DNA from: a virus
Length of the DNA stretch: 20,758 bases
Direction: 5' to 3' (one strand)
Virus record (IMG/VR): IMGVR_UViG_3300025168_000854
Coordinates: 1-20,758 of that record
The notes beneath the pieces are model-generated. The model had not been told where the DNA came from, did not search any database, and saw nothing but the letters and a program-made list of their open reading frames with translations. Below are positions 10,740 to 18,207 of this stretch, piece by piece; the first letter of the stretch is position 1; every line of letters begins with the position of its first letter. Position numbers and translations under genes: made by a program.

Positions 10740-11201
10740 ATGAACATATTCTTTTTAGATAAAGATCCTGTCAAAGCAGCACGTATGCAATGTGACAAGC
10801 ACGTTGTTAAAATGGTACTAGAGACAGCTCAAATGATATCTACGGCTGTGCGTAGTCAAGGTCATGATGTAGGCTACAAATCTGCATATCCTAAGCATCC
10901 TATGACGATTTGGGTCAATAAATCTAATGACAATTTTGCCTGGGCTCTCGAGCATGGTCTTGCATTAGGTGAAGAATATACACACCGATACAACAAGATT
11001 CATGCATCACATAAAATGCTAAAGATAATACAAGATTTAAAGATTAAAGGTAATGCTAACTATATGACGACACCACCACAATGTATGCCAGACGAGTATA
11101 AAAAAATTAGTTATGTTGATGCCTACAGAAATTATTATGTTAATGATAAAAAGTATTTTGCCAAGTACACCAATCGTGATGTACCAGAGTTTATGCAATG
11201 A
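10740..11201 (+). CDS. Conserved phage protein with DKHVVKMVLE motif, function unknown
   Basis: A 153-residue soluble protein. It opens MNIFFLDKDPVKAARMQ, then CDKHVVKMVLETAQMIS, and later has HPMTIWVNKSNDNFAWALEH and LALGEEYTHRYNKIHASH. I know this pattern from many cyanophage and pelagiphage genomes, where it is a widespread hypothetical protein. Conserved Asp, Lys, His and Glu in DKHVVKMVLE and EEYTHRY suggest an enzyme. Some annotations of related proteins suggest pyrimidine-dimer glycosylase, but I do not see the catalytic N-terminus of T4 endonuclease V. Its stop overlaps the next ATG (ATGA). Confidence 0.85.
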   Translation: MNIFFLDKDPVKAARMQCDKHVVKMVLETAQMISTAVRSQGHDVGYKSAYPKHPMTIWVNKSNDNFAWALEHGLALGEEYTHRYNKIHASHKMLKIIQDLKIKGNANYMTTPPQCMPDEYKKISYVDAYRNYYVNDKKYFAKYTNRDVPEFMQ

Positions 11202-12280: not shown

Positions 12281-12619
12281 ATGAGTATAAACAGAACCGA
12301 ACAAGATAAAATTAATCGTAAAGAAGCAAATCTACGATATTACAAACTTGAAGAAAATAAAGAACAAAAAAGAAATTATATGAAATCCTATCGTGCCCGT
12401 GATTATGTAAAAGCAAAATCTCACGAGTATTACATTGTGAATAAAATGCAGTGGGGAGAAATTACTAAAAATAAAAAAAAGAAATGGGGAGGTGCGCGCC
12501 AGGAAAATGAAGACATTAAAAGATTTCACGAAGAGTGGGCCAGAGCCAATGGCTACCGAGACAATGATATGTTACATGTAACCAATACAGAAAGACTGGT
12601 CAAAGATGCCAAAAAATAA
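12281..12619 (+). CDS. Basic helical phage protein, function unknown
   Basis: A 112-residue protein rich in Lys, Glu, Arg and Tyr. The N-terminal half is a long charged helix region around RKEANLRYYKLEENKEQK, and the middle has KNKKKKWGGARQENEDI followed by FHEEWARANGYRD. The clusters of aromatic plus basic residues suggest nucleic acid contact, but there is no HNH, zinc or helix-turn-helix signature. Its stop overlaps the SpeD start (TAATG), so the two are coupled. Confidence 0.75.
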   Translation: MSINRTEQDKINRKEANLRYYKLEENKEQKRNYMKSYRARDYVKAKSHEYYIVNKMQWGEITKNKKKKWGGARQENEDIKRFHEEWARANGYRDNDMLHVTNTERLVKDAKK

Positions 12620-12999
12620 TGAAAGAATTAAAGCATAAGCATTTATTAGTAAGGGCTGAAGTATTAGAGCCACCTAAAGATTTAAAGGCGATAAAGAAAT
12701 GGACTCGTTCTTTAATTAAAGATATTGATATGAAAATATTAGGTGGACCTTATACAAAGTATTGTGAGATCGAAGGTAATAGAGGATTAACTTGTGTTAC
12801 TATTATAGAAACATCACACATTACTTTACATTCATGGGATGAGTTAAGCCCTGCTTTGGTACAGATGGATGTGTATAGTTGTAAAGAATTAGATGAAACC
12901 GTTGTGTTTGATTACGTTTATAAGTTTCAACCCGTTAGAATGTCTTATAGATATTTTGATAGAGAAAAGAATTTTAAATTAATTAAATTAAAAAAATGA
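12619..12999 (+). CDS. speD: S-adenosylmethionine decarboxylase-family protein (SpeD-like, pyruvoyl enzyme)
   Basis: A 126-residue member of the class 1B SpeD family. Key residues align with B. subtilis/Thermotoga SpeD: the self-cleavage serine S66 in ETSHITLHSWDE, H67, the processing histidine H71 and the catalytic Cys C88 in MDVYSC, which lies 22 residues after the serine (20 in Bacillus). SpeD cleaves itself before the serine to make a pyruvoyl group and decarboxylates SAM for spermidine synthesis. The residue before the serine is T65 instead of the usual Glu. Some phage and bacterial SpeD homologues have been shown to act on arginine or ornithine, so the substrate is open. No spermidine synthase is in the window. 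Confidence 0.85.
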   Translation: MKELKHKHLLVRAEVLEPPKDLKAIKKWTRSLIKDIDMKILGGPYTKYCEIEGNRGLTCVTIIETSHITLHSWDELSPALVQMDVYSCKELDETVVFDYVYKFQPVRMSYRYFDREKNFKLIKLKK

Positions 13000-13478
13000 G
13001 CTGGAGAGAATTTAGAGAGAAAGGTAGAATTGTAGAGAGAAATTTCTACAAAAAGCATTTAACTAATGCTATTGAATCTAATGATTATCAAGATTTTAGT
13101 GAACATTGGGATGTTCAAGGGGATCTCGACGGTAAAACTTTTAAGTTTGATGTAAAAGGACTTAAAAAAACTAACCGCTGGGATTCAAACACACAAGATG
13201 ATGCTGCCTGGCACGAAGGAACTAATGTTAAGGGTAAACCTGGCTGGGGTAGAGGTAAAGCAGATTATATTGTCTTTGAAAGAAGTAACTATTGGTTAGT
13301 CGTTAATAGAGAAGAACTTTTTAAATTGGTTTGGGATGAATTGAAGCGTAGAGGATTTCCCAAAGGAAAAGGAATTTGGCTTGTGTATAATAGATGGGAC
13401 CGTCCTCTAGAGCGTACAACCATGGTGCCCTACCGTGATATTGAAAAACTTAAAGATGTTAGAAAGCTACCCAAATGA
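12996..13478 (+). CDS. PD-(D/E)XK superfamily nuclease-like protein
   Basis: A 160-residue protein with a plausible nuclease core: FSEHWDVQGDLDG, then KTFKFDVKGLKK (the D-x-K pair), then a loop DDAAWHEGTNVKGKPGWG and RGKADYIVFERSNYWLVV. The order of an acidic residue, a beta strand ending D-V-K, and a later strand with D-Y-I-V-F is the pattern of PD-(D/E)XK enzymes such as phage resolvase-like nucleases. It is a prediction from motif order only; no family name is claimed. It overlaps the SpeD stop by ATGA and the next gene by four bases. Confidence 0.68.
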   Translation: MSWREFREKGRIVERNFYKKHLTNAIESNDYQDFSEHWDVQGDLDGKTFKFDVKGLKKTNRWDSNTQDDAAWHEGTNVKGKPGWGRGKADYIVFERSNYWLVVNREELFKLVWDELKRRGFPKGKGIWLVYNRWDRPLERTTMVPYRDIEKLKDVRKLPK

Positions 13479-13705
13479 AAAAGAAAAAAGATGAATCGTG
13501 GAAAAAAGAATGGCAGGACATGCCAGAATTTAAAATGAAAGATTTAACTTCTTTTAGAAAAATAGTTGTCCATTTTAGAAACCAGAAAGATATCGATGAC
13601 TTTGCTAAGCTTATTAAACAAAAAATAACCAAGGCACCCAGTCTGTGGCACCCCCAATGGAAAAAAAGGAGATACGCCAACAAGAAATACGTTGATGAAT
13701 CCTAA
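13475..13705 (+). CDS. Small basic phage protein, conserved-looking
   Basis: A 76-residue protein: a Lys/Trp-rich N-terminus (DESWKKEWQDMPEF), then a domain FRKIVVHFRNQKDIDDFAKL and IKQKITKAPSLWHPQW. The middle has the strand-helix pattern I have seen at the C-terminus of DNA-methylase- or ParB-adjacent phage proteins, often ending with a Trp-x-Pro. I cannot name it. Overlaps of four and about ten bases tie it to the nuclease before and to the glycosyltransferase after, so it could be a partner of either. Confidence 0.72.
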   Translation: MKKKKDESWKKEWQDMPEFKMKDLTSFRKIVVHFRNQKDIDDFAKLIKQKITKAPSLWHPQWKKRRYANKKYVDES

Positions 13706-14555
13706 ACATCCAGTTTATATCATATCCAAAGGAAGATGGGAGAGTCGATTTACGAGTAAAGCTCTAGAGAAGATGAACGTGCCTTACTCGATGGTCGTTG
13801 AAGAACAAGAGTATGACTCGTATGCAGGAGTTATGGGTAAAGATAAGATACTCATTCTTCCTAAAAAATATATCAAGAACTACGACGCATGCACCACGGA
13901 CCAGGGAAAAAGTAATGGACCAGGAGCTGCGAGAAATTTTTGTTGGGAAAATTCTTTAGAAAAAGGGGCCACGAGCCATTGGGTCATGGATGATAACATC
14001 GCAGCCTTTGGTAGAATTAATAAAAATTTATATGTTCACGTTACTTCTGGAACTATATTTAAAGTTGCTGAAGATTTTATTGAACGATATGAAAACATTG
14101 CTCTTGCTGGATTTAATTATGATTTTTTAGCAAAAGCTAAAACACAAATTCCACCTTATGTAAAAAATACTAGAATCTATTCTTGTTTATTGATTCGAAA
14201 TGATATTCCTTATCGTTGGCGAGCAAGATACAACGAAGATACCGATTTATCCTTGAGAGTTTTAAAAGAGGGTTGGTGCACTATTCAATTTAATGCCTTC
14301 ATTCAGGAGAAAGCAACCACACAAACGGTGAAGGGCGGTAATACAGAGGCTTTTTACGAACACGAAGGAACTTTAAATAAATCTAAAATGTTAGAAAAAT
14401 TACACCCAGACGTTGCTAAAGTGGTATGGAAATTTAATCGTTGGCATCATCACGTGGACTATAGACCTTTTAAAAAAAATGATTTAAAAAAGAAGAAGGG
14501 GCTAAAAATTAAAAAAGCTATTAATAATTATGGAATGAAAGTTGTAAAGAAATGA
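13695..14555 (+). CDS. TET-associated-type glycosyltransferase (TAGT) for modified DNA bases
   Basis: A 286-residue GT-A fold glycosyltransferase-like protein. The N-terminus has PVYIISKGRWESRFTSKALE (7-26 in the longer form), then the divalent-cation DDN in HWVMDDN (96-102), and ERYENIALAGFNYDF and RYNEDTDLSLR further on. This series matches the TAGT family described with TET/JBP dioxygenases and hydroxymethyl-base synthases in phage DNA hypermodification, where it adds a sugar to a hydroxymethyl pyrimidine. The long frame begins with TTG 13692, but ATG 13695 is the better start. It is coupled to the RecB/Cas4-like exonuclease. No TET/JBP or hydroxymethylase gene is visible in the window, so the substrate must come from elsewhere. 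Confidence 0.8.
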   Translation: MNPKHPVYIISKGRWESRFTSKALEKMNVPYSMVVEEQEYDSYAGVMGKDKILILPKKYIKNYDACTTDQGKSNGPGAARNFCWENSLEKGATSHWVMDDNIAAFGRINKNLYVHVTSGTIFKVAEDFIERYENIALAGFNYDFLAKAKTQIPPYVKNTRIYSCLLIRNDIPYRWRARYNEDTDLSLRVLKEGWCTIQFNAFIQEKATTQTVKGGNTEAFYEHEGTLNKSKMLEKLHPDVAKVVWKFNRWHHHVDYRPFKKNDLKKKKGLKIKKAINNYGMKVVKK

Positions 14556-15295
14556 AAAAAAGTAAAAAGTATTCTTATATATCAGGAAAACAAGTCACGG
14601 ACTCCAAGACAGGAACACGGTTCTATGACTTTGCAGGTGTTAAATTACCTTCGGTGACGACAATCCTTGCAAAGACCAAGAATCAGGAGTATCTAACGGC
14701 TTGGAAAAATAAAGTTGGACATGAAAAAGCAGAATCAATCAAGAATATATCTTCTCAGCGGGGGACAAGCATGCACAAATTCCTGGAGTCTTATATCACG
14801 GACACTGGCTACGATGATCTTACGCCAATCGGATGCGAGGCGAAGCCCATGGCCCAAAAAATTATTGAAATGGGTCTTGCATCTGTTTCGGAAACCTATG
14901 GTTCAGAAGTTATGTTACATTACCCTGGGTTGTATGCTGGGAGTACTGATCTCGTATGTATGCACAATGACATGGAAACTATTGTAGACTTTAAGCAGTC
15001 AAATCGCCCCAAGAGAGAAGAATGGATAGAAGATTACTATCTGCAAATTGCAGCCTACGCCATGGCCCACGATGCGTATTACGGTAGCACGATTCGTCAA
15101 GGAGTTATTATGGTCTGTACTCCTGATTTATATTACCAAGAATTCCGAATCACGGACCAGGGTTTACGATCATACAAGCATCTATTCCTGAAGCGACTGG
15201 ACCAGTATAACGAACTAATTCATGATGAGAAAGAACAAGCACAGGTTGATACAGCCAAGCTTTTGGAGCAGTTTTCAAAAGACAAAGTGTCCTAA
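14552..15295 (+). CDS. RecB/Cas4-like PD-(D/E)XK exonuclease
   Basis: A 247-residue nuclease. The N-terminal part has KLPSVTTILAKTKNQ, then RGTSMHKFLESYI (a His-containing helix typical of RecB-like nucleases). The core is LYAGSTDLVCMHNDMETIV (the D of GSTD) followed by DFKQS (D-x-K), and later EDYYLQIAAYAMAH, the QxxxY motif of the Cas4/RecB family. Such phage exonucleases process DNA ends for recombination or replication. It overlaps the glycosyltransferase gene by four bases and ends the enzyme block. GC content and words such as CACGGAC are higher than in neighbours. Confidence 0.85.
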   Translation: MKKSKKYSYISGKQVTDSKTGTRFYDFAGVKLPSVTTILAKTKNQEYLTAWKNKVGHEKAESIKNISSQRGTSMHKFLESYITDTGYDDLTPIGCEAKPMAQKIIEMGLASVSETYGSEVMLHYPGLYAGSTDLVCMHNDMETIVDFKQSNRPKREEWIEDYYLQIAAYAMAHDAYYGSTIRQGVIMVCTPDLYYQEFRITDQGLRSYKHLFLKRLDQYNELIHDEKEQAQVDTAKLLEQFSKDKVS

Positions 15296-17601: not shown

Positions 17602-18207
17602 TTAGTGCTTGCCATAGCTCACCGTTGAGACTGAGCGGTTCCAGCATGCACGGCAATTCCCGCACTTATTGCCCTGCTTGGGCGCGGGGCAGCTGGCGTC
17701 GTGGCCTGATGTGACTGTACTAGTCCAGGGCCAAAACTTAACAGGTTTTTGGTCTATCATATGAGAGCTCATTCTAATAATTAAATTTGACGGAACTATG
17801 TCTGGATCCATAAGGTTTAAAAATTTTGCTTCTCTGGTTGGCATCCAGTGCCGAGTGTCAGGCGTGAGCCGGCACACTTCAAATATATTCTCCAGGTGCT
17901 TGACGCTTTGAATATCTCCAGCATCATGCCATCTAAAATACTTATGCTTCTTGATCAGTGTTGCCATGGCCTCGATCCATGAACCATGGCCCAAGCTTTG
18001 GAATCTACGTTCTAGAGCTTCCTCCACTTTTGGAAATCTTTTATAGTTGCCCTTCAGGGCGTAGCAGCTGGAACATACAGAATTTTTTACATTGCGAAGC
18101 TTCGCGCCAGTCAGGCACCTGCTGGCGGGTGTGTTGTACGATGGTCCAGGCATCTTGGTCGTATACGTCAGGCCGCCGGTTATTTTGTTTGCTTCTTTAA
18201 TGAGCAT
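17602..18207 (-). CDS. Gp88-family Cys-rich phage protein
   Basis: A 201-residue protein of the Gp88 type. It shows KMPGPSYNTPASRCLTG (C31), VCSSCYALKGNYKRFP (C45, C48), FRWHDAGDIQS (91-101), WMPTREAKF, IIRMSSHMID and a cluster C173, C182, C185, C188 in SCPAPKQGNKCGNCRACWN, ending VSYGKH. These are the signature blocks of this family, named after mycobacteriophage L5 gene product 88, whose function is unknown. Seven conserved Cys in two groups suggest a metal or Fe-S cluster protein, perhaps with a barrel fold, but no CxxxCxxC radical-SAM motif is present. The start lies at the end of the small gene 18180-18305. The GC content is clearly higher than in most of the window. Confidence 0.83.
   Translation of the reverse strand: MLIKEANKITGGLTYTTKMPGPSYNTPASRCLTGAKLRNVKNSVCSSCYALKGNYKRFPKVEEALERRFQSLGHGSWIEAMATLIKKHKYFRWHDAGDIQSVKHLENIFEVCRLTPDTRHWMPTREAKFLNLMDPDIVPSNLIIRMSSHMIDQKPVKFWPWTSTVTSGHDASCPAPKQGNKCGNCRACWNRSVSTVSYGKH

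Follow-up and report, generated by a model that had tools for sequence, protein, structure and literature searches.

Which gene does the TAGT-type glycosyltransferase of this marine phage work with, and on what does it act? The window, meaning the whole stretch of DNA that was analysed, is a complete linear IMG/VR record of 20,758 bases (IMGVR_UViG_3300025168_000854), and the nearest relatives of its replication genes were found in HTVC023P-type pelagiphages and their kin. Its DNA polymerase A was 62% identical to that of 023Pt_psg01, 61% to HTVC027P, 53% to HTVC023P, and 51% to DSL-LC04. A preliminary description of this locus had coupled the glycosyltransferase to the RecB/Cas4-like exonuclease encoded immediately downstream. 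The features under study are listed in Table 1.

Table 1. Features of the glycosyltransferase locus, with positions in the window
Feature	Position	Strand	Basis or comment
160-aa ORF, previously called a second nuclease; outside the module	12996..13478	+	no family match
MPEF domain (working name), small gene, 76 aa	13475..13705	+	adjoins or is fused to TAGT in 182/183 loci
11-nt overlap of the MPEF and TAGT genes	13695..13705	+	overlaps in 78/80 loci listed
TAGT glycosyltransferase, 286 aa, GT-A fold	13695..14555	+	PF20691, PHROG_842, clade residues, homologue model
DDN motif, residues 99-101, invariant; expected metal/nucleotide-sugar site	13989..13997	+	probable role, from GT-A families
E181-D182, near-invariant and invariant; candidate catalytic acidic pair	14235..14240	+	putative role
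PHROG_298 exonuclease, RecB/Cas4-like; outside the module, lineage core gene	14552..15295	+	profile matches, synteny

Several other genes in the window were recognized by profile. A primase with an AEP-TOTE domain (PF22548; 1994-3538) adjoins a UvrD-type helicase and PolA, the gene at 10740-11201 is a full-length match to Pyr_excise (PF03013) and PHROG_624, and a gene on the minus strand (17602-18207) encodes a member of the GP88 family (PF17338, 1.8e-28), which has no assigned function. Four genes 5' of the exonuclease is an S-adenosylmethionine decarboxylase-like gene (12619-12999; PF02675, 1.3e-13), possibly involved in polyamine metabolism, which showed no linkage to TAGT in other loci.

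The glycosyltransferase and its constant partner

The assignment of the 286-residue protein to the TAGT family, made earlier by inspection, was borne out by profile search: the ORF beginning with the ATG at 13695 matched PF20691 (TAGT) with 150.3 bits (E 9e-44), against a cut-off of 27.5, and matched PHROG_842 with an E value of 1e-48. All 49 of the 49 near-invariant residues of its clade were kept, the DDN motif and D182 among them.

The gene overlapping the start of TAGT had been recorded in the preliminary description as a small unnamed protein directly upstream; its presence there is correct, but its role as the partner of TAGT had been passed over. Members of this family follow the pattern W-x-x-MPE-F ... 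VHFRN..D...F..L..Q.IT....WxP, and the working name MPEF was taken from the invariant positions (W, MPE, F, and W-x-P). The window copy shared 39-79% identity with the other members in the alignment and matched no Pfam, PHROG, or NCBIfam family. Some members gave weak matches to PHROG_22103/3596, families of no known function, and a sequence search against solved structures found no relative of MPEF. MPEF is a so far undescribed domain with no Pfam or NCBIfam model, a novelty at the level of sequence that carries no claim of a new fold.

With the window TAGT protein as query, 80 TAGT loci were collected from viral contigs. An MPEF relative was encoded directly 5' of TAGT in 79 of them, as it is in the window, and the two genes overlapped in 78 out of 80 listed pairs, which include that of the window. 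There were 24 TAGT loci in bacterial genomes, and MPEF was upstream or fused in all except L111, in which the TAGT match starts at the contig end. In the TAGT-selected loci, MPEF was directly upstream or fused in 98 of 99, the exception being L003. In the reverse test, TAGT followed in all 83 of the loci selected by MPEF, and was no more than 1.5 kb downstream in 82; the other, L139, was only an apparent case of MPEF without TAGT, with its TAGT 1.6 kb downstream. Considering all loci with a complete TAGT, 182 of 183 contained MPEF, a count over loci picked by similarity to the queries that covers near relatives of this TAGT and not farther TAGTs. The sole exception, again L003, starts too near the contig end to contain MPEF. 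The 183 loci represent 118 clusters at 90% TAGT identity and 44 at 70%, and therefore the constant pairing is not one phage counted repeatedly.

MPEF without TAGT was sought in phages and viral contigs, and none was found. Two MPEF homologues used as queries against 50,697 phage records matched only TAGT-bearing phages, unlike the window MPEF itself, which gave no tblastn match to phages, perhaps as a result of low-complexity masking or divergence. Only the seed genomes were matched in a search of 385 + 369 bacterial genomes from two classes, so that these genomes provide no independent test for MPEF without TAGT. The search for another obligate partner of TAGT found no other gene family in more than 27 of the 80 loci. 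MPEF, not the neighboring exonuclease, is the constant partner of TAGT.

Architectures of the MPEF-TAGT module

The pair was found in three architectures. In 107 of the 183 loci MPEF had a small gene of its own, as it does in the window, and in 54 (labeled by sequence pattern) it stood at the C-terminus of a protein that begins with a ParB-fold domain. Most of the 13 loci labeled 'Next' also look ParB-like by eye. In the third architecture MPEF and TAGT form a single chain, found in phages that are in culture, namely Aeromonas 65, Tenacibaculum PTm1, Vibrio Kuja, Pectobacterium POP12, and Vibrio 1.076.O and 1.124.O. At least 26 changes of architecture were counted on a FastTree phylogeny in which long branches were present. 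Genes that are fused in some genomes and constantly adjacent in others are classically taken to encode interacting proteins, and for this reason we infer that MPEF and TAGT are physical partners. A fused homologue, L172 (54% identity to the window protein in its TAGT part), was modeled with AF2 and predicted as one unit (pLDDT 90.2, pTM 0.89), and the model would fit MPEF packed against TAGT.

Vibrio phage Kuja encodes two tandem MPEF-TAGT fusion proteins (L087 3548-6266), which suggests duplication, and phage POP12 has a second, partial MPEF-like ORF directly 3' of its fusion (L088 4831-5028). Vibrio phage henriette 12B8 contains both an MPEF and a TAGT ORF (L084 5591-6816), and its public record has no CDS at the TAGT match.

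The proteins in which MPEF follows a ParB-fold domain matched Pfam ParB_N with E values up to 6.7e-11 in the sampled loci. The predicted structure of a ParB-MPEF protein (pLDDT 84.9, pTM 0.64) matched CTP-bound ParB and Noc in Foldseek (E 1.7e-7). An N-terminal ParB domain of the same type starts phage DNA methyltransferases (PHROG_498; PADLOC MTase_II). In the window, MPEF stands alone, without a ParB domain.

The surroundings of the module varied. A class I methyltransferase gene was found between MPEF and TAGT in L163, L171, and L182, and a GT4-type glycosyltransferase gene in L193 and L103; these inserted genes would fit possible later steps, in which the added group is further decorated. 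The module is in the replication region in the window and near rII in POP12. In 50 of 187 loci the 3 kb downstream of the module contained a gene for packaging, be it a terminase, a portal, or a candidate small terminase. The module is followed by a portal gene in 10 loci, and in Vibrio phage 1.076.O the module gene is between the portal and head-morphogenesis genes.

Genes for making the acceptor

Enzymes that make hydroxymethylated bases were sought with PF00303 (thymidylate synthase (TS) family, in two record sets), PF12851 (TET/JBP), and PF13640 (2OG oxygenase). The earlier observation that neither a TET/JBP nor a TS-like hydroxymethylase is visible in the window held, with no match among the window ORFs scanned; the window is itself a fragment of the phage genome. 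TAGTs are characterized by a GT-A fold with an acidic DxD-like motif and by genomic association with a TET/JBP dioxygenase. The first is found in this clade, as indicated by the model of the homologue L172 and the invariant DDN; the second is not, for there was no TET/JBP match in 36 + 10 records with the MPEF-TAGT module, while the positive control, P12024L, was detected. Nor was there a PF13640 oxygenase in the small genomes with MPEF-TAGT.

A further 15 IMG/VR records (41-83 kb) had no TS-family gene, and neither had Vibrio phages 1.076.O and 1.124.O, each 48 kb in size. Among MPEF-TAGT records such genes were present only in five large phages: 12B8, 65, Kuja, POP12, and PTm1. The first four are annotated as ordinary thymidylate synthases, and those of 12B8, 65, and Kuja have, by eye, the dUMP-type Asn. 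PTm1 gp167 has Asp in place of this Asn and is a candidate dCMP hydroxymethylase in a phage that also has an MPEF-TAGT fusion. In a table of T4 relatives, gene 42 is listed for Aeromonas phages 44RR, 31, and 25; Aeh1 and 65 lack both it and the T4 glucosyltransferases, and T4 relatives without gene 42 probably have no major cytosine modification (PMC2993671). Aeh1 and 65 are both Aeromonas phages that carry MPEF-TAGT. Because many of the viral records are fragments, though several are 55-83 kb, the absence of hydroxymethylases is a trend and not proof: as judged from sequence, the usual acceptor pathway appears to be missing in nearly all relatives with MPEF-TAGT. TAGT could still mark phage DNA with sugar.

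Target of the module

There is strong reason to consider MPEF and TAGT a two-part module, set apart from the TAGTs of T-even phages and from those linked to TET. The best reading of the data is that MPEF-TAGT is a third class of TAGT, which MPEF/ParB probably directs to phage DNA. Confidence that phage DNA is the target is moderate, and comes from precedent within the family and from the ParB domain that some members carry; because the same type of ParB domain is also fused to phage DNA methyltransferases, phage DNA is the most likely acceptor. The packaging genes downstream of the module in 50 of 187 loci and the precedent of the T6 TAGT also favor DNA, and the missing classical acceptor, the resemblance of the fold to transferases of proteins or glycans, and the lack of ParB on the window MPEF count against it. 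The more specific proposal, that MPEF-TAGT is a two-part glycosyltransferase aimed at phage DNA before packaging and serves to protect it, is quite possible, if somewhat short of probable. We suggest tentatively that this third class is self-sufficient and attaches its sugar to something other than a hydroxymethyl-pyrimidine (for example a canonical base or its exocyclic nitrogen, or a virion or host protein), with MPEF as the specificity subunit, optionally carried on a ParB-type DNA clamp.

If DNA is the target, the overlapping genes at 13475-13705 and 13695-14555 would encode one two-part glycosyltransferase, in which TAGT would be the GT-A catalytic subunit, presumably using a nucleotide-sugar donor, and MPEF an obligate accessory domain that may bind TAGT in a complex and present the acceptor. 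The ParB-fold domain on the MPEF of many relatives, which resembles a CTPase/DNA clamp, would make phage DNA the likeliest acceptor. The sugar would be added to a base after replication and before packaging, and may shield the genome from host nucleases. The exonuclease is an independent neighbor.

A serious rival is that MPEF-TAGT glycosylates a protein (portal, capsid, or another part of the virion, or a host factor), that MPEF recruits this substrate, and that DNA is not the substrate of the TAGT in this clade; it is serious because no acceptor base is made and because a TAGT-called domain in GREB1 is reported to act on a protein. The solved folds closest to the L172 model are those of enzymes acting on proteins or glycans. 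Its best Foldseek matches were POMGNT1, GnT-I, COLGALT1, and GalNAc-Ts (E from 2.5e-6 down), all of which are GT-A, and VIA aligned 211-232 of its residues with BcsA and GalNAc-T2 (Z near 14, 4.3-4.6 Å). However, the GT-A fold is common to all GT-A enzymes, and because it is shared among them the acceptor cannot be read from it. The C-terminal domain of GREB1 has been described as a TAGT (PMC6163654), and GREB1 is reported to O-GlcNAcylate ER-alpha, a protein (PMC10908778 citing Shin 2021). The portal gene that follows in 10 loci and the location of the 1.076.O gene among head genes would also suit a virion protein, but the position of the locus is inconstant, from the replication region to the vicinity of rII, and the optional ParB domain suits DNA better. 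A protein target is rather unlikely but a live rival.

Classical hypermodification of the T6 or TET type, in which a 5-hydroxymethylpyrimidine supplied by an undetected or host hydroxylase is glycosylated, is improbable. Its basis is that the protein shares its Pfam family with T6 ggt and with the TET-linked TAGT of P12024L, that PTm1 pairs gp167 with its fusion, and that TS and aG/PT-PPlase genes are present in some other clades of HTVC023P-type phages, with a related transferase reported in Clade II (PMC9599517). Against this are the lack of TS-family genes in the 15 IMG/VR records and two Vibrio phages, the absence of TET/JBP under a search that detected the control, the ordinary TS annotations in 12B8, 65, Kuja, and POP12, three of them with the dUMP-type Asn, and the absence of gene 42 from Aeh1 and 65 (PMC2993671).

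The neighboring nuclease genes

The ORF downstream of TAGT matched PHROG_298 (4e-48), fell just below the cut-off for PDDEXK_1, and matched PADLOC Cas4 models with E values down to 6.5e-6. The overlap of the TAGT and exonuclease genes, on which the earlier idea of a common module was based in part, is real (4 nt), but the coupling was not upheld. The exonuclease adjoined TAGT in 4 of the 80 TAGT loci, L002-L005, which are the four nearest relatives, and it was present without a detectable TAGT in 023Pt_psg01, HTVC023P, HTVC027P, and DSL-LC04. The complete circular genome of 023Pt_psg01 has the same gene order as the window, with the exonuclease in the matching slot and no TAGT. As relatives without TAGT keep the exonuclease, the syntenic 023Pt_psg01 among them, it is a core gene of the lineage, and TAGT is an addition beside it. 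A functional unit of TAGT and exonuclease, with sugar marking phage DNA and the nuclease destroying DNA that is unmarked, is very improbable: its 4-nt overlap and the adjacency in L002-L005 stand against 76 of 80 loci with no adjacent exonuclease and four relatives without TAGT, including the same slot of 023Pt_psg01, and these linkage counts and the synteny largely refute the coupling. The processing of unmarked DNA, proposed earlier, found no support.

The ORF at 12996-13478, which had been called a second nuclease, matched nothing in Pfam, PHROGs, NCBIfam, or PADLOC, and a tblastn search of 50,697 phage records found no relative; this designation is unconfirmed. The ORF was not conserved beside TAGT in the 80 loci. 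A possible PD-(D/E)XK-like D...DVK pattern, seen by eye, is a lead only.

Comparison with known TAGT systems

The TAGT of phage T6 adds glucose to glucosyl-hydroxymethylcytosine DNA (PMC13216743, PMC2993671). The T6/T2 ggt (beta-glucosyl-HMC-alpha-glucosyltransferase) belongs to the same family, PF20691, with 35.8 bits for T6 compared to 150 bits for the window protein, and BLASTP detected no similarity between the T6 and window TAGTs. Both the T6 TAGT (PMC13216743) and the window clade have a predicted GT-A fold. In T6, ggt adjoins the dCMP hydroxymethylase gp42 and requires glucosylated hmC, whereas in the window clade the hydroxymethylase is mostly absent. The automatic label 'beta-glucosyl-HMC-alpha-glucosyltransferase' is probably wrong on MPEF-TAGT genes of phages without hmC. 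Nonlabens phage P12024L has a PF20691-type TAGT that is 24.5% identical to the window protein and is encoded beside a TET/JBP dioxygenase in a TET/JBP-TAGT-methyltransferase operon without MPEF; in contrast, members of the window clade carry MPEF but lack TET. A search for MPEF in the T6 genome and P12024L found no match.

A 2026 study found TAGT without alpha-GT or beta-GT in 288 of 753 phage genomes that bear GTs and left the function of these undefined (PMC13216743). The window clade resembles these solitary TAGTs in that most genomes have no companion GT; the MPEF partner, the TAGT fusion, and the ParB-MPEF form are not mentioned in the available portion of that study. A transferase gene near the DNA polymerase, published for the same phage group, is probably the same gene as the window TAGT. 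The accessible part of that report describes it as an addition to thymidine hypermodification and recognizes no partner domain.

One large group of TAGTs now has a uniform anatomy, with a dedicated partner domain, three architectures, and mostly no known hydroxymethylase, and the question of its acceptor can be addressed in phages that are already cultured. If the acceptor is a canonical base, this would be a new route to sugar modification of DNA; if it is a protein, it would be a large phage protein-glycosylation system. The phage DNA methyltransferases with a ParB domain (PHROG_498, PADLOC MTase_II) have the same type of ParB N-terminus as the ParB-MPEF proteins, but in the latter the effector is a TAGT, linked through MPEF, instead of a methyltransferase.
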